From contig JAHCAL010000007.1 of NCBI GenBank assembly GCA_019634925.1, positions 62,001 to 126,000 on the forward strand: a stretch of DNA of 64,000 nt. The letters run 5' to 3'. Below, piece after piece: positions 1-17,906 of this stretch (the stretch's first letter is position 1; each line of letters opens with the position of its first letter). The position numbers and the translations under genes are program-made. This DNA is from Pseudomonadales bacterium. Its GTDB lineage: Bacteria > Pseudomonadota > Gammaproteobacteria > Pseudomonadales > Azotimanducaceae. A model generated the notes under the pieces. That model searched no databases. It saw nothing but the letters and a program-made list of their open reading frames with translations, and was not told the origin of the DNA.

Positions 1-474
1 GGTGCCGTTGACCACGTAGTCGTCGCCGTCCCGGACTGCGTTGGTCTTGAGGCTCGAAAGGTCGGACCCGGAACCCGGTTCGGAATAGCCCTGGCACCAG
101 TAGTGTTCGCCGGACAGCATGCGCGGCAGGTAGTGCCGCTTCTGTTCGTCCGTTCCGTAGCGGAACAACACTGGCGCGAGCATGCGCAGCCCGAGCGGAA
201 TGAGCCCCGGCGCGCGCGCCTTCGCGCACTGCTCGCCGAAGATGTACTTCTGCGTCGGCGTCCAGTCGGTACCGCCGTACTCGCGCGGCCAGGCCGGTAC
301 CGCCCAGCCTTTCTCCACCAGGATGTGCTGCCAGCGCATCGCGAGATCCTTGTCCGCGAAGACGGTCGTGGTGCGGCACGCCGCCTCGCGCATTTCCGGC
401 GTCAGCTTCACGGCCAGGAAACTGCGCACCTCCTCGCGAAACGCCTCGTCCGCGGCGCTGAACTCGAGCTTCAT
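1..474 (-). CDS. acyl-CoA dehydrogenase, N-terminal part (cut by window edge)
   Basis: Only the first 158 residues lie inside the window; the gene continues beyond base 1. The visible part is the helical N-terminal domain of the acyl-CoA dehydrogenase family. It includes the family hallmark with core SEPGSGSDLSSLKT, which lines the FAD and acyl-CoA sites. Family members form the alpha,beta double bond of acyl-CoAs and pass electrons to ETF. The ATG at 474 begins MKLEFSAADEAF, a typical start for the large catabolic subfamily used on branched or ring-bearing acyl-CoAs. It is the last visible gene of a minus-strand cluster and starts 38 bp after the VOC gene. The substrate is unknown. Confidence 0.9.
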   Translation of the reverse strand, partial: MKLEFSAADEAFREEVRSFLAVKLTPEMREAACRTTTVFADKDLAMRWQHILVEKGWAVPAWPREYGGTDWTPTQKYIFGEQCAKARAPGLIPLGLRMLAPVLFRYGTDEQKRHYLPRMLSGEHYWCQGYSEPGSGSDLSSLKTNAVRDGDDYVVNGT

Positions 475-512
475 CTGCTGCTCCTCAATGACCCGAACCG
501 CATCCCCACGCC

Positions 513-1019
513 TCAACCAAGCCGCCGCACCGGGTCTTCACCCTGCCAGCCGACCGACGCCGCCCGGATCATGTCGAAGAGCCCACGCATGCCCGCATCG
601 CGCTGGATCAGTTCGACCATGGTCCCGGGGTGCCCGACCGTATCGATGTAGCAGAAGTTACGTCCGTGCTGCAGGCGTTCGACCGGCGCCGGCAGCGCGG
701 CGACACAGGCTTCGATGTCGTCGACGAAGAAACCGACGTGATGGAGCCCGAGCCGTCCTTCGTCCAGCCACTCCCGATAAACGGATGGCGCCGCGTTCTT
801 CTGCAGCACCAGTTCGATCTGCAGGTCGCCGGAGTTGGCGAGCGCGATGCTGATCTCGGCGGCGCAGGGCTGTCCCCGGTACACCGGGTCGACCATGCGC
901 ACGTCCGGGATCACGAAGAACGGCCCCACCCCCATCACCTCGACCCAGTGCGCGATCGCCCGATCGAGATCGTCGACCAGGTATCCATTCTGCATGACCG
1001 GTCCGAACAGACGACTCAT
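513..1019 (-). CDS. VOC-fold (glyoxalase/dioxygenase superfamily) protein
   Basis: This 168-residue protein has two beta-alpha-beta-beta-beta halves typical of the vicinal oxygen chelate fold. The first half starts NGYLVDDLDRAIAHW and the second LHHVGFFVDDIEACV. It ends with a motif around GTMVELIQRD, where the Glu is the usual last metal ligand. Family members include methylmalonyl-CoA epimerase, lactoylglutathione lyase and extradiol dioxygenases, and none of these can be chosen from sequence alone. It sits 25 bp downstream of the aminotransferase-like gene and is probably co-transcribed with it. An epimerase or isomerase role in the surrounding acyl-CoA pathway is plausible but is inference. 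Confidence 0.82.
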   Translation of the reverse strand: MSRLFGPVMQNGYLVDDLDRAIAHWVEVMGVGPFFVIPDVRMVDPVYRGQPCAAEISIALANSGDLQIELVLQKNAAPSVYREWLDEGRLGLHHVGFFVDDIEACVAALPAPVERLQHGRNFCYIDTVGHPGTMVELIQRDAGMRGLFDMIRAASVGWQGEDPVRRLG

Positions 1020-1044
1020 ACGTCCCTCTCCTCCACCGCGGCAT

Positions 1045-2379
1045 TCACGCGAACAGACCCTCCGCCTGCACGTCGGCGAGCGACGCCTGGAATACTTCGA
1101 TCAAACGGTCAACTTCCGCCGGCCCGTGCGCGGCTGACAGGAACGCCCGCTGGGTGCCGGGCACCAGCACGCCGCGATTGAGGGCGTGCAGGTAGAAGGC
1201 CTTTTCCGCCGCCGTGTTGGCGGCCGTCACGTCGCGCATGCTCTCGAGCGGGGCGCGCTGAAAAAACATGTGGAACATGCTGCCCACATTTTTCATCTGG
1301 GCCGGGATCTGCCGCGCCTGGCAGAAACCATTGACCGCATCGGCGAGCCGGTCGCCGGCCGCGTCGAGCCGTGGATAGATCTCCGGATGCGCCTTCAGGT
1401 GCCCGACCGCCGCCGCACCGGCCTCCATGGTGAGCGGGTTGCCGGAAAACGTGCCGCCCGAGAAGATGCCGTTGCGCGCGCCGAGACCGGTGAACACCTC
1501 CATCAGGTCGGCACGCCCCGTCACGGCGCCGATCGGCAGACCGCCGCCGAGCACCTTGCCGTAGGTGGCGAGGTCCGGCGTCACGCCGAAGCGTTGCTGC
1601 GCGCCGCCGTACGCGACCCGGAACCCGGTGATCACCTCGTCGATGGCGAACAGCACGCCGCTCGCGCGGCAGACCGCGGCGAGTTCGCGCAGGAACTCAC
1701 CGGCGCCAGGCTGCGGATTGGAGCTCTGCACACCTTCGACCATTACCAGCGCGAGCTCCCCCGCGTTGGCACGTATGTGATTGAACGCCGCAGGATTTCG
1801 ATACGGCAGCAACATGACCAGATCGGCCAGCGCGCGCGGGATGCCGCGCCCCATCGGCAGCTTGCCGGGCACGTCGCGCGGGCTCGACGGGTCGGTGACC
1901 CACATGCCCCAGTCGTGCGCACCGTGATAGGCACCGTCGAACAGCGCGATCTTCTCCCGCCCGCTGAAACCGCGTGCCGCCCGGATCGCGTACATGGTGG
2001 CTTCGGTGCCGGAATTGCAGAACACCACCCGTTCGGCACACGGGCTCGCCTCGTGCAGCAGCGCGGCCAGCTTCATCTGGCTCGTGGTGTGGATGCCGAA
2101 CATCCAGCCGAGCTCGCTGCGCGCCTTGATTGCCGCCTCGATCTCCGGGTGGCGGTGGCCGAGCATGTGCAGGCCGAAGCCGACCGAGGTGTCGATGTAG
2201 CGATTACCGTCCGCGTCCCATACGTATGCGCCTTCGCCGCGCTCGATGAAGATCGGATGCGGCATCTCGAGGTTCGCGGCGAGGCCGGAATTGAGGATCT
2301 CGGCGCGTTCGTCCGCGATGGCCTGGGAGCGCGTGGTCCTGCCCAGGAGTTCGGCGCGGGCTTCGGCGAGCGTGGTCAT
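1045..2379 (-). CDS. class III (GSAM-like) PLP-dependent aminotransferase/aminomutase
   Basis: The 444-residue protein is of the glutamate-1-semialdehyde 2,1-aminomutase type within class III PLP enzymes. Visible elements are NSGTEA at about 122-127 (phosphate binding), DEVITGFR at about 247-254 (Asp to the pyridine nitrogen) and the Schiff-base lysine at about 275 in ATYGKVLGGGLPIG. The ATG at 2379 overlaps the stop codon of the upstream LLM gene in an ATGA arrangement, so translation is probably coupled. HemL itself usually lies in housekeeping contexts. The location here, among SDRs and an acyl-CoA dehydrogenase, argues for a catabolic amine or amino-acid substrate. An open frame continuing upstream of this start overlaps the LLM gene and is not coding. 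Confidence 0.88.
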   Translation of the reverse strand: MTTLAEARAELLGRTTRSQAIADERAEILNSGLAANLEMPHPIFIERGEGAYVWDADGNRYIDTSVGFGLHMLGHRHPEIEAAIKARSELGWMFGIHTTSQMKLAALLHEASPCAERVVFCNSGTEATMYAIRAARGFSGREKIALFDGAYHGAHDWGMWVTDPSSPRDVPGKLPMGRGIPRALADLVMLLPYRNPAAFNHIRANAGELALVMVEGVQSSNPQPGAGEFLRELAAVCRASGVLFAIDEVITGFRVAYGGAQQRFGVTPDLATYGKVLGGGLPIGAVTGRADLMEVFTGLGARNGIFSGGTFSGNPLTMEAGAAAVGHLKAHPEIYPRLDAAGDRLADAVNGFCQARQIPAQMKNVGSMFHMFFQRAPLESMRDVTAANTAAEKAFYLHALNRGVLVPGTQRAFLSAAHGPAEVDRLIEVFQASLADVQAEGLFA

Positions 2380-3341
2380 TTTCCGCTGAGCCGGGCCACC
2401 ACCGGCGCGAAGGCATCGAGCGCCGTCTCGCCGACCGTGACGTAGGAAATGCCGTGCAGCTCGCGGCGCCGCTCGAGCTCCTCGCAGACGGCATCCACCG
2501 AACCGAACAGCGCGTGCGGGTGCTCGCGCATGGCGGCCGGCGTCAGGCCGAACATCTGCGCGAAGTTGCCGAGTATCGGCTCCGCGTTGTCCATGACGAA
2601 GGTAAAGTAGGCACCGATCTCGATTTCGAGCGCGTCGAACCGCGCGCCGGCGCCTTCCCGCACCCAGCCGAGCTTGCGCTGTGTTTCCTCCTTCGAAGAG
2701 GTCGCGACCCCGTCCGGGCCGATCACGCCGGCGCGGTTGTTGAAGTTGAGACTGACGATGTCCGCTTCGCGACCCGCGAGCCGCAGCACCTTCGGGCTGC
2801 CCCCGCCGATCATGATGGGCACGCCCGACACCGGCCGCGGCACGCCTTCGAACTCCTGCCAATGCAGGGTCGAATTCTGCACGTCGAGCTGGCCGCCCGC
2901 GCGGAACGCCTTGACGCCTTCGATGACGTCGGCGAGACGGTCGATCCGCACGCCGGGCATGTCGAACGGCAGTCCCACCGCGGCGTATTCGTCCTTCAGC
3001 CACCCGGCGCCGAGACCGAGCTCGAGCCGGCCGTCCGAGAGCAGGTCGATGGTCATCGCGGACTTGGTCAGCACCAGGGGGTTGTGGTAGTCGATGCAGA
3101 ACACGCGGCAGCCGATCCGGATGCGCTCGGTCACGGCGGCGGCATATGCCATCGCCGGGATCGCCGCGAGGTTCTGCTCGGGGTGGTTGGTGCGCGTGAG
3201 CGCCGGACCCGGCCCGAGCAGGTGGTCGGCCAGGTGGAAGGCCGAGTAGCCGAGTGCTTCCGCCTTGCGCGCCTTGTCGGCCCACGCCTTGCCGGATTCC
3301 GCATTGAACGTCTGCAACCCGAACCGGAACGGTTTTTTCAT
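2376..3341 (-). CDS. LLM-class flavin/F420-dependent oxidoreductase
   Basis: This 321-residue protein has the luciferase-like TIM barrel. It opens with FGLQTFNAESGKAWADKARK and contains LGLGAGWLKDEYAAVG, the classic cofactor-phosphate loop. It resembles the mycobacterial MSMEG_2516-type subgroup annotated as F420-dependent. Whether it uses F420 or FMN cannot be seen from sequence, and F420 is uncommon in proteobacteria. It is translationally coupled to the GSAM-like gene through a 4-bp overlap and lies 36 bp after the ThuA-like gene. It is one of three LLM proteins in the window (see 31937 and 53951), each of a different subgroup. Confidence 0.88.
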   Translation of the reverse strand: MKKPFRFGLQTFNAESGKAWADKARKAEALGYSAFHLADHLLGPGPALTRTNHPEQNLAAIPAMAYAAAVTERIRIGCRVFCIDYHNPLVLTKSAMTIDLLSDGRLELGLGAGWLKDEYAAVGLPFDMPGVRIDRLADVIEGVKAFRAGGQLDVQNSTLHWQEFEGVPRPVSGVPIMIGGGSPKVLRLAGREADIVSLNFNNRAGVIGPDGVATSSKEETQRKLGWVREGAGARFDALEIEIGAYFTFVMDNAEPILGNFAQMFGLTPAAMREHPHALFGSVDAVCEELERRRELHGISYVTVGETALDAFAPVVARLSGK

Positions 3342-3377
3342 CTGGTCAGCTCCCCCACCCGTTCACGCACCCGTGGT

Positions 3378-4139
3378 TCATACCGCTGGCGCGGTGGCGC
3401 AGCAGTAGCGGATACCGCGCCGCAGCAGTTCGTAATACTCGGGCCGTTCCCAGCTGCCACGTTCGATCTTCGGGTAGTACGGGATTTTCAGATCCTGCAT
3501 GTCGTAGTGCCCGCGGCAGTGGCCGAGGTTGAGATAGACCACCTCGCCTGCGCCGACCCGGTTGATGTAGTACACGGGGCGCCGCTCGGCATCCGGCCAG
3601 TCCGCCTCGACGAACCCTGCGGCCGGGCCCGAGTACTCCGCGTGCAGCAGCATGTGCAGATCGCCGTGGACCCGGCACAGGTAGAGTTCGTCGTCGGTCT
3701 CGAACGGCTCGATGCCGCGCACCAGTTCGTGGCCGGGGTCGGTCACGTGCACGCGAAACGGCTGGATCGGCGGATGGGCGATGAACTGCGTGCCGAGCGT
3801 TTGCATGAACACCGGCGCCCGTTCCGGCGCGTCGACCCGCCCGTCGGCCAGGAACTCGAGGATCGAGTTGGTCCCGTGCAGGGCGAACCAGCGCTTGCCC
3901 GACGCAACCCAGTCGCGCAGCGCCACCTGCTCCGCGTCGCTCGGGATCACGTTGCAGGTGTAAGTGACGAGCACGTCGCTCGCGCGGATCGCGTCGAGAT
4001 CGCGATAGTCCGCGGCGACCCGGACCCGGATCCTCGGCTCCTCGGCCAGGAGTTTCAGCAACTCGAGGCGCGCGAAGTCGATGTCGTGGTACTGGCCGGC
4101 GGCCACCAGGTGGACGCGGATCACGCGATGTTCGGACAT
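3378..4139 (-). CDS. ThuA-like domain protein
   Basis: The 253-residue protein matches the ThuA (trehalose-utilisation) fold, which is related to class I glutamine amidotransferases. It has an N-terminal strand-loop ending VLVTYTCN, a segment with ALHGTNSI, and the family landmark ETDDELYL, followed by VYYINRVGAGEVVYLNLGHCRG. I chose the ATG at 4139, beginning MSEHRVIRV, because GGGGGAGAG lies just upstream. A start 22 codons earlier has no such site. ThuA proteins mostly lack a proven activity; some are linked to sugar-derivative metabolism. Placement between an LLM oxidoreductase and an SDR in a catabolic cluster is unusual. A second ThuA-like gene lies at 9498-10286. Confidence 0.8.
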   Translation of the reverse strand: MSEHRVIRVHLVAAGQYHDIDFARLELLKLLAEEPRIRVRVAADYRDLDAIRASDVLVTYTCNVIPSDAEQVALRDWVASGKRWFALHGTNSILEFLADGRVDAPERAPVFMQTLGTQFIAHPPIQPFRVHVTDPGHELVRGIEPFETDDELYLCRVHGDLHMLLHAEYSGPAAGFVEADWPDAERRPVYYINRVGAGEVVYLNLGHCRGHYDMQDLKIPYYPKIERGSWERPEYYELLRRGIRYCCATAPAV

Positions 4140-4176
4140 GCTCTCCCCCTTCTGCGGCGCGATCAGGACGCGATGA

Positions 4177-4935
4177 TCAGAACTGGATCCGCTTGGTGAA
4201 ACCACCGTCGATGACCAGGTTGGCCCCGGTGGTGAACGAACCGAGCGGGCTCGCCAGCAGCGCGATCTGCGCCGCGACCTCTTCGGCCGTGCCCATGCGC
4301 CCGACCGGAATCTGGGCGACGGTCGCCTCGAAGAACGGCGTCATGTGCTGCTTGATGCGATCCCACGAACCGCCTTCGATCAGGATCGGGCCGGGTGAAA
4401 CCGCATTGACGCGGATCTTCTTGGCACCGAGATCCTGGGCCAGCGCGCCGGCGTACTGGATGACTGCAGCCTTGATGGCGTTGTAGGCGCCAGCCGCGAT
4501 GAACTTCTCGAGCGCCGCGGTGGACGAGATCATGACGATGCTCGCGTTCGACGACTTCTCCAGATACGGCAGTGCCGCTTCCACGCAGCGCACGGTGCCG
4601 AGCAGGTCGTGCTCGAAGTTGGCGCGCCAGCCGGCTTCGCCCGGGGCATTGCCGCCGCTGACGTTGGAGACCATGCAGTCGATGCCGCCGAGCGCTTCGG
4701 CGGATGCCTTGATCCAGGCCTTCAGCGCGTCGCCGTCGCCGACGTCAACCGAAGCCCCGATCGCCTTGACGCCCTTGGCGGAGAGCGATGCCACCGCCGC
4801 GTCGATCTCGGCCTGGTTGCGGGCACAGATCGCGACGTTGCAGCCTTCCGACGCCAGCCGTTCCGCGATGGCGCGGCCGATGCCCTTGGAGCCGCCGGTG
4901 ATGAGTGCCTTGCCGCCTTTCAGTTGCAGATCCAT
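4177..4935 (-). CDS. SDR-family NAD(P)-dependent oxidoreductase
   Basis: This 252-residue classical short-chain dehydrogenase has the dinucleotide motif TGGSKGIG at residues 13-20. The catalytic Ser is at 137/138, and Tyr151-x3-Lys155 sits in AYNAIKAA. The C-terminus carries the usual GANLVIDGGF signature. It probably oxidises a secondary alcohol or reduces a ketone of a ring or acyl intermediate, with unknown substrate. It is the third of three SDRs in the same minus-strand cluster. It lies 92 bp below the Rieske gene and 37 bp above the ThuA-like gene. Confidence 0.92.
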   Translation of the reverse strand: MDLQLKGGKALITGGSKGIGRAIAERLASEGCNVAICARNQAEIDAAVASLSAKGVKAIGASVDVGDGDALKAWIKASAEALGGIDCMVSNVSGGNAPGEAGWRANFEHDLLGTVRCVEAALPYLEKSSNASIVMISSTAALEKFIAAGAYNAIKAAVIQYAGALAQDLGAKKIRVNAVSPGPILIEGGSWDRIKQHMTPFFEATVAQIPVGRMGTAEEVAAQIALLASPLGSFTTGANLVIDGGFTKRIQF

Positions 4936-5027
4936 GTGTCGATTCTCCCTTTGGGTTCGTTGCGCGCACCGGACGGTGCACGCTCAGCTCAGATTGAGTT
5001 CGGGACCGTACGCGCGGCAGACCGCGC

Positions 5028-5354
5028 TCAAGGCGGGCCCTTCGCGCGGACCCCGCCGACGGATACGTTGACCTTGCCGCCCTCCACGAAGACCCGGTAA
5101 GTCGGCAGGCCTTCGGTCGCGGGCCCCCGGACGCAGCGGCCATCGCGCACATCGAACCGCGCGCCGTGCAACGGGCAGGTCAGCTCGTAGCCGCGCAGGC
5201 GCCCCGTGTGCAGCGCCTGCCGCGCGTGGCTGCAGTAGTTGCCGACCGCGAAGAATGCACCATCCACACGGCAGAGCAGTACCTCCGTGCCGTCCACGCG
5301 CACCGGCATGGTCTGTCCGTCGCGCAACGCATTCATCGGTATGGACGTATTCAT
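5028..5354 (-). CDS. Rieske [2Fe-2S] ferredoxin
   Basis: The 108-residue stand-alone Rieske protein has cluster ligands Cys41-x-His43 (NYCSHARQ) and Cys60-x2-His63 (TCPLHGARFDV). This is the spacing of soluble ring-hydroxylating-dioxygenase ferredoxins of the BphF type. No oxygenase alpha subunit or dedicated reductase is in the window. The nearest oxygenases are the two P450s at 8186 and 13850. A Rieske ferredoxin as P450 partner would be unusual, so the partner is open. The gene lies 90 bp below one SDR and 92 bp above another, which fits one operon. Confidence 0.92.
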   Translation of the reverse strand: MNTSIPMNALRDGQTMPVRVDGTEVLLCRVDGAFFAVGNYCSHARQALHTGRLRGYELTCPLHGARFDVRDGRCVRGPATEGLPTYRVFVEGGKVNVSVGGVRAKGPP

Positions 5355-5444
5355 GCCAGCTGCACATCCCGCAATCGATCGACCCCCGGTCGCCGCCCGT
5401 TTGTATCACTCGCTTGCGGACATTGCCATCGCAGCACCTTCGCA

Positions 5445-6179
5445 TCACGGGCTCTGCAACGCACCGCCGTCGACCAGCAGTCCATGGCCGGTGATGAACG
5501 CCGCATCCGCCGAAGCCAGGAACGCGATCGCCGCCGCGATGTCCGCCGGCTGACCGAGCCGTCGCACAGCTGCCTTGTTGGTCCAGAAGTCGCGGAACGC
5601 CGCATCGGCTGCGAAAACGTCACGCGTGATGCCGGTGACGATCGCGCCGGGCTGCACGTAGTTGGCCGTGATCCCGAACGGCCCGAGTTCGAGCGCGAGC
5701 GTGCGGGTGAGCCCGGCGATGCCGTGTTTGGACACGGTGTAGGCGCCCATGCCGGCTGCCGCGTGGGTGCTCATCACCGAGCCGACGTTGACGATCCTGC
5801 CGCGTCCGCTCGCCTTCAGCGACGGGATCGCCGCCCTGCAGATGCGGAACACCGCGTCGAGGTTGATGCCGATCACCCGGTGCCACAGCTCGTCGCTGAG
5901 CGCTTCGATGGGGGCGCCCGCCGAGATACCGGCATTGTTGACCAGTACGTCGAGACCGCCCATGTGCTCTGCCGCAGCCTGCATCAACGCGGCCGGCGCA
6001 CCAGGGTCCGTCACGTCCAGCGTCAGGGCCGCGCGGGCGCCGATCGAATCGAGCGGTGCGCCATTGCGGTCGCACACCACGATCACGGCACCCTCTGCGA
6101 TCAGCCGTTCGGCGGTCGCCCGACCAATGCCGTCGGCGGCGCCGGTCACGATGCAGCGGATACCGTCGAATCGGTGCAT
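5445..6179 (-). CDS. SDR-family NAD(P)-dependent oxidoreductase
   Basis: This 244-residue classical SDR has TGAADGIG at residues 12-19 and NNAG at 81-84. Catalytic residues are Ser134, Tyr147 and Lys151 (AYTVSKHG), and the C-terminal tail contains LLVDGGAL. An acidic residue after beta-2 (CDRNG) suggests NAD rather than NADP as cofactor. It is the second gene of the minus-strand cluster, 36 bp below the first SDR. The substrate is unknown. The three SDRs of this cluster clearly differ from each other, suggesting three separate redox steps. Confidence 0.92.
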   Translation of the reverse strand: MHRFDGIRCIVTGAADGIGRATAERLIAEGAVIVVCDRNGAPLDSIGARAALTLDVTDPGAPAALMQAAAEHMGGLDVLVNNAGISAGAPIEALSDELWHRVIGINLDAVFRICRAAIPSLKASGRGRIVNVGSVMSTHAAAGMGAYTVSKHGIAGLTRTLALELGPFGITANYVQPGAIVTGITRDVFAADAAFRDFWTNKAAVRRLGQPADIAAAIAFLASADAAFITGHGLLVDGGALQSP

Positions 6180-6215
6180 GGCTTCAGTGGCCTGCCTGCA
6201 TGACCGGGACGACCC

Positions 6216-6986
6216 TCAGCGGGCCAGGAACCCGCCGTCGATCGGCAGCGCCACGCCGGTGACCCAGTCGGCGTCGGACGAGGCTAGATACAGGATGCCC
6301 TTCGCGATGTCCTCGGCCCGCCCGATGCGGCCGAGCGGATGGCTCGAGGCGAACTGTGCGAGCAGCGCTTCCCGGTCGGGGCCGTTGTCGAGATAGACGT
6401 CCACCATGGGCGTATGCGTGGCGCCTGGCAGCACCGCGTTGCAGCGGATCCCATAGCCCCGCTCCGCGCAGTGCAGGGCCGTCGAGCGCGTGATCGCGAG
6501 TACCGCGGCCTTGCTCGCCGAGTAGGCTGCATACATGGCGCCCGGGCGGGCGCCCAGGGTGGACGCGAGGTTGACGATGGCACCGCCGCCGAAGCGCTTG
6601 ATGGTGGCGACACCGTGTTTGCAGCCGAGGAATACGCCGTCCGCATTGATCGCCTGGGTCTCGCGCCAGAGCGCGAAGGTCGCGTCCTCGACGTTGGCGG
6701 GTACGCTGATCCCGGCCGAATTGACCAGCACGTGCAGCGCGCCGAGGGTCTCGACGGCGTGCGCGCAGGCTGCTTCCCAGGAGCGTTCGTCGGTGACGTC
6801 GAGCGCGACGCTACTCGCGGCCGAACCGATTTCGCGCGCAACGGCTTCGGCAAGACCGATGTTGCGGTCGGCGAGCAGCACCCGCGCCCCTTCCGCGGCG
6901 AGCAACCGCGCAGTCGCCGCGCCGATACCGCTGGCGCCGCCGGTAACCATGGCGCACCGGCCGTCGAAACGCCGCGCTCCGCTCAT
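6216..6986 (-). CDS. SDR-family NAD(P)-dependent oxidoreductase (first gene of cluster)
   Basis: This 256-residue classical SDR has TGGASGIG at 15-22. Asp40 at the end of beta-2 favours NAD(H). Catalytic Ser142, Tyr155 and Lys159 (YSASKA) are present, and the C-terminus contains GVALPIDGGFL. I placed the start at the ATG at 6986 (MSGARRFDG) because AGGGGAGGCGG lies immediately upstream. An open frame 23 codons longer reaches into the promoter region. It is the promoter-proximal gene of the nine-gene minus-strand cluster and is divergent from the medium-chain reductase gene at 7158. Confidence 0.9.
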   Translation of the reverse strand: MSGARRFDGRCAMVTGGASGIGAATARLLAAEGARVLLADRNIGLAEAVAREIGSAASSVALDVTDERSWEAACAHAVETLGALHVLVNSAGISVPANVEDATFALWRETQAINADGVFLGCKHGVATIKRFGGGAIVNLASTLGARPGAMYAAYSASKAAVLAITRSTALHCAERGYGIRCNAVLPGATHTPMVDVYLDNGPDREALLAQFASSHPLGRIGRAEDIAKGILYLASSDADWVTGVALPIDGGFLAR

Positions 6987-7157: not shown

Positions 7158-8165
7158 ATGACCGAGAAAAACCGCCAGTTCCTGCTGGCCGCACGGCCGG
7201 TCGGCATGGTGAAGGAAACCGACTTCGAATACCGCGAAGTACCGGTTCCGGAGCCCGCCGAGGGCGAGGTCCTGATCCGGACCACCTATCTTTCGCTCGA
7301 CCCGTCCATGCGCGGCCAGATGGAAAATCGTGCCGACTACGTCGCACCGCTCCAGATCGGCGACGTCATGCGCGCCGGCGGCGTGGGCCGGATCGTGCGC
7401 TCGCGCAATCCGGCGTTCCCGGAAGACGCGCAGGTGAGCGGCACGTTCGGCATGCAGGACTACGTCGTCTCGGACGGTCGCAACGTGCCGTTCCGGGTGG
7501 TGGACGGCGCACTCGATCCGACCCTGGTCCTGGGGGTCCTCGGCGGCACGGGCATGACCGCCTTTTTCGGCCTCCTCGACCTCGGCAGGCCGCAACCCGG
7601 CGAAACGGTGGTCGTGAGCGGCGCGGCCGGCGCGACTGGCAGCGTGGCCGGGCAGATCGCGAAGCTGAAAGGCTGCCGGGTCATCGGTATCGCCGGCAGC
7701 GACGCCAAGTGCCGCTGGCTGACCGGCGAGCTCGGCTTCGATGCTGCGATCAACTACCGCACGGAGGATGTCGGCGCAGCCCTCGACCGGCACTGCCCGC
7801 GCGGCATCGACATCTACTTCGACAACGTCGGCGGCGAGATCCTCGATCTCTGCCTCGCGCGCATCGCCAACAATGCCCGGGTCGTGCTCTGCGGCGGTAT
7901 CTCGCGCTACAACGCGACCGGCCCCATTCCGGGCCCGAAAAACTACTTCAACCTCGTGTTCCGGCGCGCGCGCATGGAAGGCTTCATCGTGCTGGACTAC
8001 GCTGCCCGCTTCCCCGAGGCGATTGCGGAGATGCGGCGCTGGATCGACGCAGGACAGCTGAAGCAGCAGGTCACCGTGATCGAGGGGTTCCGCGAACTGC
8101 CGCGCGCGCTGATCCGGCTGTTCGAGGGCTACAACACCGGCAAGCTGATGGTGCAGACCACTTAG
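7158..8165 (+). CDS. NADP-dependent medium-chain reductase (CurA/PTGR/YncB-like)
   Basis: The 335-residue zinc-free medium-chain dehydrogenase/reductase has YLSLDPSMRGQM near residues 49-60, the signature of the leukotriene B4 dehydrogenase/curcumin reductase group. Its nucleotide loop is SGAAGATGSVAGQIAKL. Members reduce the double bond of alpha,beta-unsaturated ketones with NADPH. Here it would suit reduction of an enone intermediate. Only 20 bp separate its stop from the P450 start, so the two are probably one transcript. The ATG at 7158 has GGGGAGG about 11 bp upstream. Confidence 0.9.
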   Translation: MTEKNRQFLLAARPVGMVKETDFEYREVPVPEPAEGEVLIRTTYLSLDPSMRGQMENRADYVAPLQIGDVMRAGGVGRIVRSRNPAFPEDAQVSGTFGMQDYVVSDGRNVPFRVVDGALDPTLVLGVLGGTGMTAFFGLLDLGRPQPGETVVVSGAAGATGSVAGQIAKLKGCRVIGIAGSDAKCRWLTGELGFDAAINYRTEDVGAALDRHCPRGIDIYFDNVGGEILDLCLARIANNARVVLCGGISRYNATGPIPGPKNYFNLVFRRARMEGFIVLDYAARFPEAIAEMRRWIDAGQLKQQVTVIEGFRELPRALIRLFEGYNTGKLMVQTT

Positions 8166-8185
8166 GCTGATTGAGGAGACCTCGC

Positions 8186-9442
8186 ATGACGACGACCGAC
8201 GTTCTGCACGGACCGCTCGCGGCCACCACGCCGCTGAGCCCCGAGGTGCTCGCCTGCCCGCACGCATTCAACGAACGGCTGCGCCACGAGGCGCCAGTCT
8301 ATCGGTGCCCGCACACCGGCATCGTGTTCGTATCCGATTACGCGACCGTATGTCGGATCGCCAAGGACTACCAGACGTTCTCCAACAAATTCGGCCAGGC
8401 CATGCGCTCGGAGGGCGAAGTGGATCCGCGCCTGCGCGACGTACAGGCGCGCGGTTACCCACCGGTCGACACGATGCTGACCCAGGACCCACCCCTGCAC
8501 CGGCGTTACCGGGGGATGGTGAACGAGGCGTTCACCGCTCGGCGGGTAGCCACGCTCGAGCCGTACATCGAGCGCCTGTGCCACGAGCTGATCGACGGCT
8601 TCGTGGATGCAGGCCGCTGCGAGTTCGTGGAGGCGTTTGCCGAACGCGTGCCGATGACCGTGATCGCCGATCAGCTCGGCGTGCCGCTCTCCGACTACGA
8701 TCTCTTCAAGTCGTGGTCGGATGCCTTCGTCGCCCAGCTCTCGCGGCTCGCCTCGCCCGACGAGGAACTCGCCGCCATGAAGCTGATCGTGGACTTCCAG
8801 CACTACTTTGCCAACAAGCTCGAGGAACGACGCCACGACCGGCGCGACGACATCATCTCGGACATCGTGCACGCCCGCTTCGAGAACGAGCGCCCGCTCG
8901 ACGTGCCGGAGATGCTGTCGATCCTCCAGCAGCTCCTTGTGGCTGGCAACGAGACCACTACCCACAGCATCGCCGAAGGCGTCCTGCTGCTGATCGAAAA
9001 CCCGGACCAGCACGCCCTGCTGAAGGCGGATCCCGGCCTGATTCCGAATTTCACCGAGGAAGTGCTGCGGCTGTCCTCGCCGACCGCCAACATGTGGCGC
9101 GTCGTGACCCGCGACACCGAGATCAACGGCATCCCGGTCACCAAGGGCAGCATGGTGCAGCTGCGCTTCTCGTCCGCCAACCGCGACGAGGCGGTCTACC
9201 CCGCGCCGCATCGGCTCGACGTCACCCGCGACAATGCACGCACCCACGTCGCGTTCGGTCACGGCGTGCACATGTGCATCGGGGCGAGCCTCGCACGCGG
9301 CGAGCTGAACGTGGCGTTCCGGGTCCTGCTCGAGCGGCTCGACGATTTCGCACTCGACTGCCGGCCGGAGGAACTGGTCTACGCGCCGAACGTGCTGCTG
9401 CGCGGCGTTTCGAAACTGCCGATCCGGTTCCGGCGCCGCTGA
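8186..9442 (+). CDS. cytochrome P450 (class I bacterial type)
   Basis: This soluble 418-residue P450 has the I-helix oxygen-activation motif AGNETT at 253-258, the K-helix Glu292-x2-Arg295 and the haem loop FGHGVHMCIGASLA with Cys364 as the thiolate ligand. There is no membrane anchor. Electron donors are not encoded next to it. The Rieske protein at 5028 or ferredoxins elsewhere are candidates. I chose the ATG at 8186 because GAGGAG lies 8 bp before it; a TTG 15 bp upstream is part of that site. It shares long near-identical stretches around the I-helix with the P450 at 13850, so the two are paralogues. The substrate is probably a hydrophobic ring or alkyl chain, by inference. Confidence 0.95.
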   Translation: MTTTDVLHGPLAATTPLSPEVLACPHAFNERLRHEAPVYRCPHTGIVFVSDYATVCRIAKDYQTFSNKFGQAMRSEGEVDPRLRDVQARGYPPVDTMLTQDPPLHRRYRGMVNEAFTARRVATLEPYIERLCHELIDGFVDAGRCEFVEAFAERVPMTVIADQLGVPLSDYDLFKSWSDAFVAQLSRLASPDEELAAMKLIVDFQHYFANKLEERRHDRRDDIISDIVHARFENERPLDVPEMLSILQQLLVAGNETTTHSIAEGVLLLIENPDQHALLKADPGLIPNFTEEVLRLSSPTANMWRVVTRDTEINGIPVTKGSMVQLRFSSANRDEAVYPAPHRLDVTRDNARTHVAFGHGVHMCIGASLARGELNVAFRVLLERLDDFALDCRPEELVYAPNVLLRGVSKLPIRFRRR

Positions 9443-9497: not shown

Positions 9498-10286
9498 TCA
9501 GCTGCGCCGGGCCGCCCAGCGGATCGCGTTGCCGAGCAGCGTGCGGAAGTGCGGGTTCGCGTACGCGACCGGGTCGTCGCCGCACTGCAGGTAGACCACA
9601 CGCGTCGCGCCGATCGTGCGGGTCCAGCCAACCAGGTTGCTGCCCGGCGGATGTTCCCAACCGGTGTTGTCGTACATGCGGCGCTCGCGAACCACTTTCG
9701 CGGCGGAGTAGAAGTGGTCGCGGGTGAACGTATAGTCGCTCGCGAGCAGCGGCTCGACCGTGTCCTCGAAGACCTCGTACAGGTACAGCTCGTCGGTGAT
9801 GGAGAATTCCGCCGGCACACCCGCGGTCACTGGATGGTCGCGCAGCACGCGCACGGTGTGGGTCACGCCATGTCGATAGCCGGAGTCCTGGCGCGCGCTG
9901 CCGCGGAGTTCCGCGGGAAGGTACAGGAATCGCCCGCCGATGAGCTCACCATATTCGGGCCAGGCCGGCCAGCCGGCGATGGCATGGTGCAGGAACACGA
10001 ACCCGAAGCCCTGCTCGACCAGGGCGGCGAGGCGCTGCTTCAGGCGCGCGTCCGGCGCCGGGAAGTCCGGCGCGCGATCAGGATGGAATCGGATACCGGG
10101 CATGTCGTAGAGCACGAACGCATCGAATCGGGCGGCCTCCTCCGGCTCGAACAGCGCTTCGGCGGCGGGATGCTCGACGTGAGTCCAGCCGACGCCCGGC
10201 AGCGCATCGAAAGTCGCGAAAAGCGCCTCGCGCTCGAACGGATGTCCCCGCGTGAGAAGCAGCACTTCGGGATCTACGGAACGCAT
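9498..10286 (-). CDS. ThuA-like domain protein (second copy)
   Basis: The 262-residue ThuA-like protein contains the landmarks VLYDMPGIRF, FVFLHHAIAGWPAWPEYGEL and ITDELYLYEVFED. It ends with VVYLQCGDDPVAY and GNAIRWAARR. The HH pair and DELYL segment are the conserved face of ThuA proteins, but a canonical Cys nucleophile of class I amidotransferases is not evident. It is convergent with the P450 gene and divergent from the TetR gene starting 64 bp away, so that TetR may control it. It is only distantly similar to the ThuA protein at 3378. Confidence 0.78.
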   Translation of the reverse strand: MRSVDPEVLLLTRGHPFEREALFATFDALPGVGWTHVEHPAAEALFEPEEAARFDAFVLYDMPGIRFHPDRAPDFPAPDARLKQRLAALVEQGFGFVFLHHAIAGWPAWPEYGELIGGRFLYLPAELRGSARQDSGYRHGVTHTVRVLRDHPVTAGVPAEFSITDELYLYEVFEDTVEPLLASDYTFTRDHFYSAAKVVRERRMYDNTGWEHPPGSNLVGWTRTIGATRVVYLQCGDDPVAYANPHFRTLLGNAIRWAARRS

Positions 10287-10349: not shown

Positions 10350-10994
10350 ATGCCGCCCGCCGAAGCCGCCGCCAAGACCTGGCAGCAGACCAAGAGCGAG
10401 ATGACCCGGACCGCGATCCTGGACGCGGCGATCGACTGTTTCTACGAACTGGGGTTCGCGAACACCACCACCGAGAACATCGCCCGTGCCGCCGGTGTCT
10501 CGCGCGGCGCCATGCTGCACCACTTTCCGACCCGCTTCGACCTCATCAAGGCGGCGGTCGAGCATCTCGCCGAGGCACGCCTCGCGAGCTTCGCAGACGA
10601 GCAGACCCGCATCCAGCGCGGCGCCGAGCACAGCCGCATCGAGGAAGGCATCGATGCCTACTGGCGGCAGCTCAACACGCCGGCCTTCGTCGTCATGCAG
10701 GAACTGCGCATCGCCTCGCGCACCGACAAGGATCTCGAACAGATCCTCGCGCCGGCGCTCAAGGCGTTCAACAAGGCCTGGTACCAGGCGGTGCAGCAGA
10801 TCTTCCCCGACCTGGCACTTTCCGAAGCATTCATCCGCACGAGCTTCCTGACCCAGTACATGCTGGAGGGCATGGCAGCCGCCCGGCTGGGCGGCGGCCC
10901 GAAGGTACCGGAGAAGCTGATGCTCGATTGGCTGAAGCGTGAACTCAGGCGCAGCTACCAGGACGTGCTGACGACGGTGCGACGCACGACCTAG
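10350..10994 (+). CDS. TetR-family transcriptional regulator
   Basis: This 214-residue protein has an N-terminal TetR helix-turn-helix at about residues 39-62 (TTENIARAAGVSRGAMLHHF), followed by an all-helical ligand domain of normal length. The ATG at 10350 begins MPPAEAAAKTWQQ. A much longer open frame upstream overlaps the ThuA gene and is not coding. It is divergent from the ThuA-like gene. A ten-base-pair hairpin terminator follows. Likely targets are its own promoter and possibly the repeated elements near 13614 and 13743. The ligand is unknown. Confidence 0.92.
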   Translation: MPPAEAAAKTWQQTKSEMTRTAILDAAIDCFYELGFANTTTENIARAAGVSRGAMLHHFPTRFDLIKAAVEHLAEARLASFADEQTRIQRGAEHSRIEEGIDAYWRQLNTPAFVVMQELRIASRTDKDLEQILAPALKAFNKAWYQAVQQIFPDLALSEAFIRTSFLTQYMLEGMAAARLGGGPKVPEKLMLDWLKRELRRSYQDVLTTVRRTT

Positions 10995-11076: not shown

Positions 11077-13524
11077 TCAGTTGTTCCAGACCAGTTCGAT
11101 CGCGTAGGTGCGCGGCGGCGCCCAGCCCTGGAAGCCGCCACCGGCGCCGAGGATCAGGGTCTGCTCACGGTATTCCTTGTCGGTCAGGTTCTTGCCCACG
11201 AGCGATACGACCACGTTGCGCTCGTCCGCGAGGCCGAACTCGAAGCTGACCCGCGCATCGACCAGCGTGTAGCCATCCTCGAACTCCGGCGTTACCGCCG
11301 TTGCGCCGCCGGAGATGACCCACTCGTCCTGACCACGGGCCGTCACGCTCGCCTGCAGGTAGTTGGGGCCGATCTCGCGCCCGTAGACCAGGGTCGACGA
11401 CCAGTTCCACTCCGGCGTCCGCGCCAGCGCACCGCCACCGATGGTGAGATCCGGGCAGTTGTTCGGGAACAGCGCGGGATTCTCCGCGGCGTTGCAGGCC
11501 GTGCCGGAGACCTGATTGAAGATCACGCGCCGCGAAGAGATCTGGAACCGGTCGCTCTTGTCGTCCTGGTACCCGGCAGTGACGATCAGCGAAAGTCCGT
11601 CCGACAGCACGGCGGTCATTTCCGCTTCGAGCCCACGGATCTCGATGTCGCCCTTGGCGTTGTTGACCAGCGTGTTGGTGCCCGGGCTGCCAGGGGTCTG
11701 CTGGTCGGTGAGGACCGAGGAGAACTGCGCGTTCTGCAGGATGTTCACGAATGCCGCGACATTGAGTCGCATGCGCCCGTCGAGGAACTCGTTCTTCGAG
11801 CCGATCTCCCAGGAATCCACGTTTTCCGGGTCGTAGGGCAGGAACTCGGCGAGAATCCCGCGGATCGAGAAGCCGCCGCTGCGGAACCCCTGCGAGAACG
11901 ACGCGTAGACGTTGCTGGTGTCACTCAGCGTGTAGGTGCCGGTCACCTTGAAGATCGTGTCGCTCCAGCTGTCCTCCTGCTTCGGCACGCTCAGGTTGGC
12001 CGCACCGGTGACCTGGGTGGGCGGCTCGATCGGGCCGCTCGGGACACCATTGAAGAAGGCCGTCTTGAAGTCCTTCTTGTCATCGATATAGCGCGCCCCT
12101 GCCGACAACTCGAGCCGTTCGGTCGCCTGCCAGGTGACGTTGCCGAAGTAACCGAGTGACTCGGTGTTCTCGGACGAGCGCTGACCGGCATAAAGCGAGC
12201 CGAACTGGCAGAGCGAATCGCCAACTGCGGGGTTCGGCACGAATCCGGGTATCGGCACGGGCACCGGCGCGATTCCGGCAACCAGACATCCCGGCGCGAT
12301 CGTGGCAGTCCCCGCGGGCAGGCCCAGCGCGCGATCGAATACGGGACCGAACGCCGGCGCGGGAAATTGCAGCACCTGATTGGTTCCCTGGGCGAAGTCG
12401 AGTTCGGTCTTCATGTAAAACGCACCCACCTGGTAGCTCAGGCGGTCGTTGATGTCTCCCGCCCAGCGGAATTCCTGGGTGAACGTGTCGTAGTCCTGGT
12501 CACGCAAGGTGTGCAATTGAACGAGCGGCACGGCAGTCGCGTTACGGTTCGATCCGTCGAAGTCCTGCCCGACGATGTCGGTCGACTCGACCAGGCCGGT
12601 GATCGACGTAAAGGTCCCCTGGTCGGTAACCCACTCGATCTGGAGGCCCCAGGAATCGGTATCTAGGTACTGGTACTCGTCGAAATCCCCTTCGTTGACG
12701 AAAGGATCCGGTCCGTTGTAGCGCGGATCCTGCGGTGGGATGTCGCCACGATCGCGGATCTTGTCGTAAGTCAGCTGAGCGGAGAACGAATCGGACGGCG
12801 CCAGCAGCATCGACGTGGTGAAGCTCTTGTAGTCGATGTCTCCGGCCGATCCGCCGCGATTGATGTTGCGGTAGTAGCCGTCCGACTCCTTGGCGATGCC
12901 GCCCACCTTGACGGCAAACATGTCATTGAACGGGAGGTTGACCCGCGCCTTCACGATCCGCTCGTCGAACCGGCCCGCCTGTGCGGCCACGTTGAATCCG
13001 AAACGCTCGGTGTTCGGCTTGACCCGGTTGACGACGATCGTGCCGCCAGTGGTGTTCTTGCCGTACAGCACGCCCTGCGGGCCGCGGTTGACCTCAACCT
13101 GTTCGATGTCGAACGTGTCGATCAGCTGGCCGGTGCTCGACGGCTGGAACAGCCCGTCGACGATTACGCCCACCGCGGAAGCCTGGGTTTTCTCGATGTC
13201 GGCGTAGCCGAGTCCACGGATGTAGATTGCGCCGGCGCTCGGGCCAGCCGTGTTCATGCCGATGAACACGTTCGGCATCAGCCCGTCGAAGTCACGCAGC
13301 GTCTTCGGCGCAATGCGTGCGATGTCTTCCTGCCGGAACGCCGTCACCGAGACCGGCACGTCCTGCAGCGATTCGGCGGTGCGCCGCGAGGTCACGATGA
13401 TTTCTTCGATCACCCCGGTCCGGTCGCGCTCGGCGGCGACGGCGGCGGCAACGGGCGTGAGGGTTAAGGCACCGGCCAGCGCGGACCACGCCGCGACGGC
13501 ACCCAGTGGCATCAGGATACGCAT
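11077..13524 (-). CDS. TonB-dependent outer-membrane receptor
   Basis: The 815-residue receptor has a Sec signal peptide (MRILMPLGAVAAWSALAGAL, cleavage probably near AVAAE). A TonB-box-like EEIIVTS and plug domain (DVPVSVTAFR, IYIRGLGY, VEVNRGPQGVLYGKNTTGG) follow. The rest is a 22-strand-type beta-barrel ending AIELVWNN. The plug and barrel resemble the proteobacterial group that takes up large hydrophobic or glycosidic compounds rather than siderophores; no siderophore genes are nearby. I chose the ATG at 13524 because AGGGGAGAGAG precedes it. The gene is divergent from a P450, so import and first oxidation of one substrate is a reasonable guess. Confidence 0.95.
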   Translation of the reverse strand: MRILMPLGAVAAWSALAGALTLTPVAAAVAAERDRTGVIEEIIVTSRRTAESLQDVPVSVTAFRQEDIARIAPKTLRDFDGLMPNVFIGMNTAGPSAGAIYIRGLGYADIEKTQASAVGVIVDGLFQPSSTGQLIDTFDIEQVEVNRGPQGVLYGKNTTGGTIVVNRVKPNTERFGFNVAAQAGRFDERIVKARVNLPFNDMFAVKVGGIAKESDGYYRNINRGGSAGDIDYKSFTTSMLLAPSDSFSAQLTYDKIRDRGDIPPQDPRYNGPDPFVNEGDFDEYQYLDTDSWGLQIEWVTDQGTFTSITGLVESTDIVGQDFDGSNRNATAVPLVQLHTLRDQDYDTFTQEFRWAGDINDRLSYQVGAFYMKTELDFAQGTNQVLQFPAPAFGPVFDRALGLPAGTATIAPGCLVAGIAPVPVPIPGFVPNPAVGDSLCQFGSLYAGQRSSENTESLGYFGNVTWQATERLELSAGARYIDDKKDFKTAFFNGVPSGPIEPPTQVTGAANLSVPKQEDSWSDTIFKVTGTYTLSDTSNVYASFSQGFRSGGFSIRGILAEFLPYDPENVDSWEIGSKNEFLDGRMRLNVAAFVNILQNAQFSSVLTDQQTPGSPGTNTLVNNAKGDIEIRGLEAEMTAVLSDGLSLIVTAGYQDDKSDRFQISSRRVIFNQVSGTACNAAENPALFPNNCPDLTIGGGALARTPEWNWSSTLVYGREIGPNYLQASVTARGQDEWVISGGATAVTPEFEDGYTLVDARVSFEFGLADERNVVVSLVGKNLTDKEYREQTLILGAGGGFQGWAPPRTYAIELVWNN

Positions 13525-13613
13525 GTCGACTCTCTCCCCTGCAGCAGGTTGCCCGGAATGGGCTCCCAGCCTGTTTTGTGCGCCGCGAAAACGCGACCGG
13601 TGCCGGCCCCTAA

Positions 13614-13635
13614 AACCGGCACCGGCGACTGTTTT
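13614..13635. promoter_or_regulatory. operator-like repeat, copy 1
   Basis: AACCGGCAC, four bases, GACTGTTTT. Both nine-base arms and the four-base spacing match the copy at 13743 exactly, and only the spacer differs. It lies about 90 bp upstream of the TonB-receptor start on the other strand. Confidence 0.5.
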
Positions 13636-13742
13636 AGTGTAAGCACCCGTTCGAGTCAATGGCCGCGCGCGCGTTCATCGCAGACTCATTCGCATGCCTC
13701 CAGTCCATCACTACCAATCCACCGGACGGGCCTGACCAGAAT

Positions 13743-13764
13743 AACCGGCACAGTTGACTGTTTT
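13743..13764. promoter_or_regulatory. operator-like repeat, copy 2
   Basis: AACCGGCAC, AGTT, GACTGTTTT. In this copy the centre forms a near-perfect palindrome, ACAGT-TG-ACTGT (13750-13761), the kind of short inverted repeat bound by TetR dimers. It overlaps a possible -35 element of the P450 gene at 13850. Confidence 0.5.
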
Positions 13765-13849
13765 TACCGATCGGGCACACTGCGGCGCAATCGGCTGCGC
13801 GACGATCGACTTGCGGGACACCGCGCAGGGCGGTCCAGGGGGGAGTGAG

Positions 13850-15091
13850 ATGGCGGCATTGCTGGACGAAACGTGTCTCGCCGATCCGGAAGTTCTGGAG
13901 CGTCCAGCCGACTACTACCACGCGCTCCATGAGCGCCCGATCCACTTCGACAAGCGGCTCGGCTTTTACATCTGCTCCACGTACGGGCTCATGCGCGAGA
14001 TTCTGCGCAATACGGAAGTCTTCTCCAGTGTCGACAGCCAGACGGTGGACACACTCCGCCCGCCCCCCGCAGAGGCTCTCGCGATACGACGCGCCAGCCA
14101 ACCGGCGGTCGCTACGCTCGTCAACAACGATCCACCGTCGCATACGCGGTTCCGCAGCCTGGTCGACGACCCCTTCCGCCCGCGCAGCATCGAACGCCTC
14201 ATAGGCCAGATCCGCTCGGTGGTCGACGCGACGCTCGACGCATTCATCGACCGGGGCGAGTGCGAAGTGGTCGCGGACCTCGCCATCCCGGTCCCGATCC
14301 GGGTCATCGCGGACATGTTGGGCATCCCCCGCGAACTGGCGCCACAGATCAAGGCCTGGTCGGACGCGTCGGTGGAGCCGCTCGGCATGCTGGCCGATGA
14401 CGCACGACTGATCGAGTGCGCACGCCTCCTCAAGGAATTCCAGGACTTCATGGTCGCGGAACTCGAGGCACGTCGCGCGCGCCCCCGGGACGATCTGCTC
14501 ACCCACCTGGTCGAGGCCCGCGACGCGGACGGCGCCGGCTTCACGATGCCCGAGATGCTCTCGCTTACCCAGCAGTTCCTGGTCGCCGGCAACGAGACCA
14601 CGACCAACGCGATCGCGGCCGGCGTGCAGCTACTGATCGAGAACCCGGACCTGCAGGCGCGCCTGGCCGCCGGCCGCGAACCGAACCGACTGCGTGTATT
14701 CGCGAACGAGGTGCTGCGGCTCGAGTCGCCGGTGCAGGGCCTGTTCCGCATCGTCACCCGCGACGTCGAACTCGAAGGCGTCAGGCTTCCGGCCGGCGCG
14801 CGGGTGATGGTCCGCTTCGCTGCCGCCAACCGTGACCCGACCAAGTATCACGATCCGGACAGCGTCGACCTCGACCGTCACAACGCGGGCACACACCTCG
14901 CATTCGGCGCCGGCATCCACCATTGCATCGGCGCCAACCTGGCGCGCGAGGAGCTGGTCTGGACGTTCGATGCCCTGCTCGGCCGCGCCAGGAACTTCGC
15001 TTTCGCCGAGGACCGCAACGACTTCCGCCATCATCCCTCGCTGATCCTGCGGGGACTGAAGCGTCTCTACGTCACCTTCGAGACGCGCTGA
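13850..15091 (+). CDS. cytochrome P450 (class I bacterial type), second copy
   Basis: The 413-residue soluble P450 has AGNETT at 246-251, Glu287-x2-Arg290 and haem loop FGAGIHHCIGANLA with Cys359. It is a paralogue of the P450 at 8186; both share the pattern around LVAGNETTT and LLIENPD. The ATG at 13850 is preceded by GGGGGGAG. It is divergent from the TonB receptor and convergent with the acyl-CoA synthetase gene. No redox partner is adjacent. The N-terminal substrate-recognition regions differ from those of the paralogue, suggesting a different substrate or position of attack. Confidence 0.95.
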   Translation: MAALLDETCLADPEVLERPADYYHALHERPIHFDKRLGFYICSTYGLMREILRNTEVFSSVDSQTVDTLRPPPAEALAIRRASQPAVATLVNNDPPSHTRFRSLVDDPFRPRSIERLIGQIRSVVDATLDAFIDRGECEVVADLAIPVPIRVIADMLGIPRELAPQIKAWSDASVEPLGMLADDARLIECARLLKEFQDFMVAELEARRARPRDDLLTHLVEARDADGAGFTMPEMLSLTQQFLVAGNETTTNAIAAGVQLLIENPDLQARLAAGREPNRLRVFANEVLRLESPVQGLFRIVTRDVELEGVRLPAGARVMVRFAAANRDPTKYHDPDSVDLDRHNAGTHLAFGAGIHHCIGANLAREELVWTFDALLGRARNFAFAEDRNDFRHHPSLILRGLKRLYVTFETR

Positions 15092-16669: not shown

Positions 16670-16795
16670 TCCCCCTGCTGCCGCGATTCCGCTATAAAGT
16701 ACGCGCACAGGGTAAGTCAGGAAACCGGACGACGCGACCGCCGCGGCGCGACCGTTCACAGTCCGCCCGTCCACAGTCAATGGGGAGAGACCAAC
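16670..16795. promoter_or_regulatory. divergent promoter, acyl-CoA synthetase / E1 operon
   Basis: The 126-bp spacer contains CACAGTC twice, at 16757-16763 and 16772-16778 (15-bp period). Each contains the ACAGTC core also seen in the elements near 7058, 13627 and 13756. GGGGAGA at 16781-16787 is the ribosome-binding site for the TTG start at 16796. Confidence 0.4.
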
Positions 16796-17821: not shown

Positions 17822-17906
17822 TATGGTCCGCCCGGACCGCGTCGACGCCGATAGCATGCCCACTACTCGCCCACCCTTGGGCAATGGAACTTTCGAGGAG
17901 CCCGCC

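Follow-up and report, generated by a model that had tools for sequence, protein, structure and literature searches.

What do nine tightly packed genes at the left end of a stretch of Pseudomonadales DNA do together, and do they form a unit of their own? The stretch, below called the window, is 64,000 nucleotides long and covers positions 62001-126000 of contig C10 of genome G000 (3.47 Mb, 87% complete, 12 contigs), and the genes in question, consecutive on the minus strand, encode two short-chain dehydrogenases/reductases (SDR_A and SDR_B), a Rieske ferredoxin, a third such dehydrogenase (SDR_C), a ThuA-like protein (ThuA1), a luciferase-like oxidoreductase (LLM), a GSAM-like enzyme, a VOC protein and an acyl-CoA dehydrogenase (ACAD). 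A first-pass annotation had called this run a compact nine-gene catabolic cluster, and its order and strand are exactly as listed there. The description as a catabolic cluster holds up well, but its natural boundaries are not those of the nine genes, since the conserved core is SDR_C-ThuA1(-LLM-GSAM), SDR_A, SDR_B and VOC are rare in the loci of relatives, a Rieske oxygenase that most ferredoxin-bearing relatives have in their core is missing, and the locus reaches to about 24.7 kb. We propose, with a probability of roughly one half, that the nine-gene run belongs, as one of its arms, to a larger locus for the catabolism of a hydrophobic, cyclic, terpenoid- or steroid-like compound, and that this locus is probably controlled by a TetR-family regulator.

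Gene order and its conservation

ThuA1 has a close orthologue (59-100% identity) in 21 of 58 genomes searched, the window's own included, and LLM orthologues (57-100%) occur in 20 of the same genomes, 19 of them ThuA1-positive. This co-occurrence, with 3 discordant genomes, gives a Fisher p of 4e-12 (2e-7 within the family only), and the 10 genomes with GSAM orthologues at 68% or more (7e-6; family only 5e-4) as well as the 12 whose Rieske oxygenase match is no lower than 68% (3e-7; family only 7e-5) are all ThuA1-positive, although these p values are uncorrected for phylogeny and kinship among the genomes inflates their significance. Among 84,980 species genomes scanned there were furthermore at least 550 relatives. 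In the best 80 loci, many of which run off the end of a contig, so that neighbour counts are lower bounds, SDR_C lies near ThuA1 in 71 and directly upstream of it in 65, while LLM is near in 40 and directly downstream in 37. Other neighbours are TetR (30 loci), the Rieske ferredoxin and a second ThuA-like protein, ThuA2 (24 each), ACAD (21), the cytochrome P450a (16), an MDR enone reductase, SDR_B and a TonB-dependent receptor (15 each) and the GSAM-like enzyme (14). The adjacency of SDR_C and LLM in these loci and the co-occurrence of ThuA1 and LLM together mean that the arrangement exceeds chance, and the cluster is real, its order being kept in many bacteria of sea and soil that are uncultured. 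The synteny in other genomes on which the first-pass annotation had let its cluster stand or fall is thus present.

The conservation is layered. The deepest layer is the SDR_C-ThuA1 pair, shared by Alpha-, Beta- and Gammaproteobacteria and Myxococcota. Most carriers are metagenome genomes of Pseudomonadales, and the others include Caulobacteraceae and further Alphaproteobacteria, Zoogloea, Aromatoleum, Pseudoduganella and a Myxococcales genome. In the window's uncultured Pseudomonadales family a second layer has the order Rieske oxygenase-ferredoxin-SDR_C-ThuA1-LLM-GSAM, followed in relatives by a CMD protein and ACAD and preceded by TetR, ThuA2 and MDR, and further flanked by P450s, a CoA ligase and a thiamine-dependent 2-oxoacid/acetoin-type dehydrogenase, most of which the window also has. 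The closest illustration is locus L085 (TetR-ThuA2-P450a-MDR-SDR_B-Rieske oxygenase-ferredoxin-SDR_C-ThuA1-LLM-GSAM), whose order the window repeats minus the Rieske oxygenase and plus SDR_A ahead of SDR_B. Two metagenome bins titled Klebsiella pneumoniae, L108 (CAMAVY010000162.1) and L141 (CAMAXE010000021.1), also carry the cluster; their titles look wrong, and their matches agree with genomes G030 and G044, which the search assigns to the family and order of the window itself.

It might be objected that SDR, P450 and ACAD genes are abundant and that locus content varies between genera, so that the locus could be a loose island of generic oxidoreductases sharing no pathway. Such an island is quite improbable as an explanation of the whole, and for the core it is largely refuted by the SDR_C-ThuA1-LLM order, kept across genera at roughly 57-90% identity, and by the strong co-occurrence, but it may still apply to SDR_A, VOC and the genes to the right.

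Within the window the run is indeed compact. From SDR_A (6216-6986; PF13561, E 6e-58) it proceeds through SDR_B (5445-6179; PF13561, E 3e-59), the Rieske [2Fe-2S] ferredoxin (5028-5354; PF00355, E 3e-18, with intact CxH and CxxH motifs), SDR_C (4177-4935; PF13561, E 2e-50), ThuA1 (3378-4139), LLM (2376-3341), the GSAM-like enzyme (1045-2379) and the VOC protein of Glyoxalase_4 type (513-1019; PF13669, E 3e-16) to ACAD, and the successive intergenic gaps are 36, 90, 92, 37, 36, -4, 25 and 38 bp, so that the maximum of 92 bp and the single ATGA overlap noted earlier, which falls between LLM and GSAM, are both borne out. SDR_A starts at the ATG at 6986, which has a good Shine-Dalgarno sequence, and a longer open reading frame with a TTG start reaches 7055. 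A promoter and terminator scan gave a single promoter-like site, before SDR_A, though chance alone predicts one such site in the scan. Extension of the contig to the left, as had been suggested, completes ACAD (-728 to 474, or C10:61273-62474), which ends 728 bp outside the window at contig position 61273 and is PimC-large-like (PF02770/PF02771/PF00441; 355 bits against TIGR03204, under the cut-off of 624). Beyond it a long palindrome precedes a kinase/FGE-sulfatase gene that is unrelated, and the transcript therefore probably ends at this boundary. The palindrome (C10:61188-61263, some 740-813 bp outside the window) is perfect, with two 37-base arms, GGGGTCAGAGTAAAAACCCGCC..., and it resembles a REP-type element and may be a terminator; its outer GGGGTCAGAGTAAAA motif is found again, in a pair of inverted copies, at a distance of 9.4 kb to the left.

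ThuA1 and the enzymes beside it

Both ThuA1 (PF06283, E 1e-17, 65.4 bits against a cut-off of 33.4) and ThuA2 (9498-10286, minus strand; E 8e-24, 85.6 bits against 33.4) score above the curated family cut-off and thus belong to the ThuA family, and a sequence search of the PDB with either gave nothing significant. The AlphaFold model of ThuA1 (pLDDT 96, pTM 0.93) has as its nearest solved fold 4e5v, a ThuA-like protein from Parabacteroides (TM 0.64, E 1e-11, 16% identity), and we are confident that the modelled protein has a ThuA/GATase-like fold with no close solved relative. Invariant residues among 53 homologues include H18, D21, Y60, H88, H122, H137, E151, Y153, H207 and D213, and the loop following strand 83-86 reads L87-H88-G89-T90 in 53 of 53 sequences; judged by strand order in the model, this loop would be the nucleophile elbow. 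Class I glutamine amidotransferases have an invariant catalytic Cys at that elbow, whereas no cysteine is invariant in the 53-sequence alignment, which argues against ThuA1 being a glutaminase, and a metal- or acid/base-type enzyme seems likely.

The LLM belongs to the F420-type family TIGR03621 (268 bits against a cut-off of 213), and its nearest solved sequence is 9g64, an F420-dependent oxidoreductase. The genome carries the F420 biosynthesis genes CofD and CofH within 5 kb of each other on contig C9, and the LLM is therefore plausibly F420-dependent; CofD also scores above its cut-off in 29 of 38 relatives searched. In this gammaproteobacterial genome the F420 genes occupy C9:113429-117418, the CofH-type sequence lying within a 944-residue frame. 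A second F420-type LLM (TIGR03560, above cut-off) is found in the window itself at 53951-54901, with a CoA ester lyase-like aldolase, an SDR, a CMD protein and a TetR gene nearby at 54.9-58.5 kb, and these genes probably constitute another catabolic operon.

The GSAM-like protein is a class III aminotransferase/aminomutase dependent on pyridoxal phosphate (PLP) (PF00202, E 1e-58). It is probably not the housekeeping enzyme, since it reaches only 336 bits against the hemL model TIGR00713, under the cut-off of 527, and since a separate paralogue of 41% identity is encoded at C7:16184, as one is in most relatives. Its orthologues (68-84%) are confined to genomes with ThuA1 and LLM, and it has no firm place in the route proposed below; VOC is likewise unplaced.

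In relatives the ferredoxin follows a Rieske oxygenase alpha gene in 19 of the 24 loci bearing such an oxygenase (p 1e-9). No such alpha gene is present at the window locus, where the distance between SDR_B and the ferredoxin is just 90 bp, and the gene is thus cleanly absent; the other Rieske oxygenases of the genome are distant paralogues (38% and 33%) on other contigs. At the position of the oxygenase the window instead has two SDRs, and a P450 stands across the divergent promoter. Relatives of SDR_A (46-54%) are found together with P450a near SDR_C-ThuA1 in five alphaproteobacteria-type loci (p 0.0009, uncorrected), which suggests that a P450 version of the pathway exists. The idea that Rieske oxygenase and P450a exclude each other among the loci was also considered and rejected, as 3 loci have both where about 4 are expected (p 0.74), and replacement of the one by the other is therefore claimed for the window locus alone, by comparison with its relatives.

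The GSAM-like enzyme and the Rieske oxygenase of the relatives are also what would speak for a nitrogen-containing cyclic or quaternary-amine substrate, the oxygenase then being an N-dealkylating monooxygenase and the GSAM-like enzyme moving or removing an amino group. The best, though weak, match of that oxygenase is to the glycine betaine monooxygenase model, and the GSAM-like gene is translationally coupled to LLM besides its recurrence among the loci. The score of 118 bits is however far under the cut-off of 670 and close to the 103 bits obtained with a dioxygenase model, the GSAM-like gene is missing from about half of the ThuA1/LLM genomes, and the CoA ligase and ACAD genes suit lipophilic carbon skeletons, so that a nitrogenous substrate appears unlikely. 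The earlier suggestion of such compounds rests mainly on the GSAM-like gene, one of the less constant members of the locus.

The wider locus and a possible route

The divergent enone reductase and P450 reported by the first-pass annotation are present as a CurA-like MDR protein (7158-8165, plus strand; NF058644, 364 bits, under the cut-off of 440) and P450a (8171-9442, plus; PF00067), and beyond them follow ThuA2 and a TetR-family regulator (10350-10994, plus; PF00440), which it had not listed; ThuA2 usually adjoins TetR in the loci of relatives as well. Further to the right lie the TonB-dependent receptor (11077-13659, minus; PF00593/PF07715), P450b (13754-15091, plus; PF00067) and acyl-CoA ligase 1 (15137-16690, right end approximate, minus), which is of PRK12406 type at 417 bits, below the cut-off of that model, and has orthologues in relatives' loci. 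Then comes a set of plus-strand genes with approximate starts, namely E1alpha of a thiamine pyrophosphate (TPP)-dependent 2-oxoacid/acetoin-type dehydrogenase (16790-17767), E1beta (17900-18905; NF006667, 330 against 321 bits; PF02779/PF02780), an ATP-NAD-kinase-like protein (18930-19968) that is AcoX-like by position and has no NCBIfam match, and the E2 dihydrolipoyl acyltransferase (19976-21397), which scores low against the NCBIfam acetoin E2 model (70 bits, cut-off 307). A relative of the kinase-like protein, at L067:701-1687, carries PF01513. The E1alpha, E1beta and E2 genes are thus clustered in the window, and in relatives E1alpha is found on the same contig as ThuA1 or LLM/GSAM. The last candidate is acyl-CoA ligase 2 (23179-24744, plus; PF00501), whose membership of the locus is uncertain.

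A catabolic route can be sketched from these families. The compound would enter by way of the TonB receptor and be hydroxylated on a ring by P450a, a step that in most ferredoxin-bearing relatives would instead fall to the Rieske oxygenase, and the resulting alcohols would be oxidised by the SDRs. SDR_C would yield a keto or hydroxy-keto intermediate on which ThuA1 might act by hydrolysis, isomerisation or C-C cleavage, by analogy with the ThuB/ThuA pairing in sugar catabolism, while carbon-carbon double bonds would be adjusted by the F420-type LLM and the enone reductase. The cleaved product may then be converted to an acyl-CoA by the thiamine-dependent E1/E2 complex and a CoA ligase, and ACAD would start beta-oxidation. 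This reading is supported by the operon-like packing of the genes, by the conserved neighbours and the co-occurrence described above, by the presence of CofD and CofH in the genome, and by the recurrence at the loci of genes that form or oxidise acyl-CoA (ACAD, CoA ligase, E1alpha/E1beta) and of TonB receptors.

Several facts weigh against it. The GSAM-like enzyme is unsuited to a pure hydrocarbon route, and the E1 complex is also found in genomes lacking ThuA1 (G008, G010, G011 and G019). Steroids in particular are not specifically supported, as no extradiol ring-cleaving dioxygenase is found among the locus genes scanned, and the extradiol dioxygenase that the genome does have sits in an unrelated cluster on another contig. 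It is of HsaC/TesB type, but sequence inspection, with no profile scan, found no recognisable steroid genes beside it, and a steroid-specific assignment was dropped. Next to this gene (C7:184841-185695; L165:10829-13544) are an LLM, two genes of amidohydrolase-like type and what appear to be the alpha and beta genes of a Rieske oxygenase, and its region is by its gene content a separate ring-cleavage cluster. The P450, SDR, LLM and PLP families are moreover common in biosynthesis, and the genes could accordingly tailor a secondary metabolite instead of breaking a compound down. We regard this as very unlikely, since the cluster was not found to adjoin any synthase gene for polyketides, peptides or terpenes and what recurs is instead beta-oxidation genes, the TPP dehydrogenase, CoA ligases and the TonB receptor.

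Comparison with known systems and significance

Parts of the locus have counterparts in well-known systems. In ThuA/ThuB sugar utilisation a dehydrogenase is paired with a ThuA protein, though ThuB is not an SDR and the substrates are disaccharides, and the likeness to ThuA1/SDR_C was compared at the level of Pfam families only. Acetoin dehydrogenase operons (acoXABC) keep the E1alpha, E1beta, NAD-kinase-like and E2 genes together, as the window does.

The closest larger likeness is an island on plasmid pNL2 of N. aromaticivorans (SARO_RS18540-RS18680), which like the window has ThuA, three SDRs, VOC, P450, ACAD, TonB receptors and E1alpha/E1beta/E2. Its Rieske oxygenase and ThuA genes form an overlapping pair followed by thiolase, ACAD and E1/E2; unlike the window it has several Rieske oxygenases and a LuxR gene adjoining ThuA, and this ThuA is only 55% identical and lacks a neighbouring LLM or GSAM-like gene. 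The island is annotated, and no functional description of it was found in open-access papers. In N. aromaticivorans pNL2, N. humi, N. sp. ES2-1 and Croceicoccus marinus alike, the gene that immediately follows a Rieske oxygenase, and overlaps or abuts it, is a ThuA (53-59% to ThuA1), with three SDR genes lying opposite. In Paracoccus pantotrophus a Rieske oxygenase gene is grouped with MaoC, two ThuA genes, SDRs, thiolase, CoA transferase and ETF. Judging by their annotation these plasmid ThuA neighbourhoods look catabolic. A link to tomatine by way of the Sphingobium Tom plasmids was dropped, as the ThuA of these plasmids shows no more than 39% identity and goes unmentioned in the paper.

With the edc estrogen cluster of N. 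tardaugens (PMC7793797) the locus shares a first hydroxylation by P450, oxidation of a 2-oxoacid to acyl-CoA, ACAD and a TonB receptor, but edc differs in its extradiol dioxygenase and ferredoxin-type oxidoreductase, and ThuA is unmentioned in the text of that paper. With the pdc progesterone cluster of C. tardaugens (PMC12239570) it shares an LLM, there acting on a cyclic ketone in a Baeyer-Villiger reaction, and a nearby TetR regulator, but that LLM is treated as a flavin-dependent type II Baeyer-Villiger monooxygenase, and F420, ThuA and GSAM are lacking. The enzymes of the window are thus ordinary singly and the kind of locus, with oxygenase, SDR and acyl-CoA genes, is known; the statement that the combination matches no known pathway agrees with the open-access literature, in which no description of it was found, most subscription papers lying outside that search. 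For F420 in marine gammaproteobacteria no relevant description was likewise found in the open-access literature.

A bolder and rather doubtful extension of the proposal is that ThuA1 and SDR_C form a portable ketone-making and ketone-opening module, shared by several proteobacterial classes, into which different oxygenases (Rieske or P450) and, in the window's family, an F420-dependent reductase plug, ThuA1 then being a new kind of ring-degrading enzyme. ThuA proteins are widespread and their chemistry is poorly known, and the SDR-ThuA pair, whose conservation extends over Pseudomonadales, Caulobacteraceae and Myxococcota and which repeatedly occurs in the company of oxygenase and acyl-CoA genes, offers a concrete two-enzyme test, for which cultured ThuA carriers exist in N. 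aromaticivorans DSM 12444, Aromatoleum toluvorans, Paracoccus pantotrophus and Pseudoduganella. If true, the proposed route would place coenzyme F420 in a gammaproteobacterial catabolic pathway.

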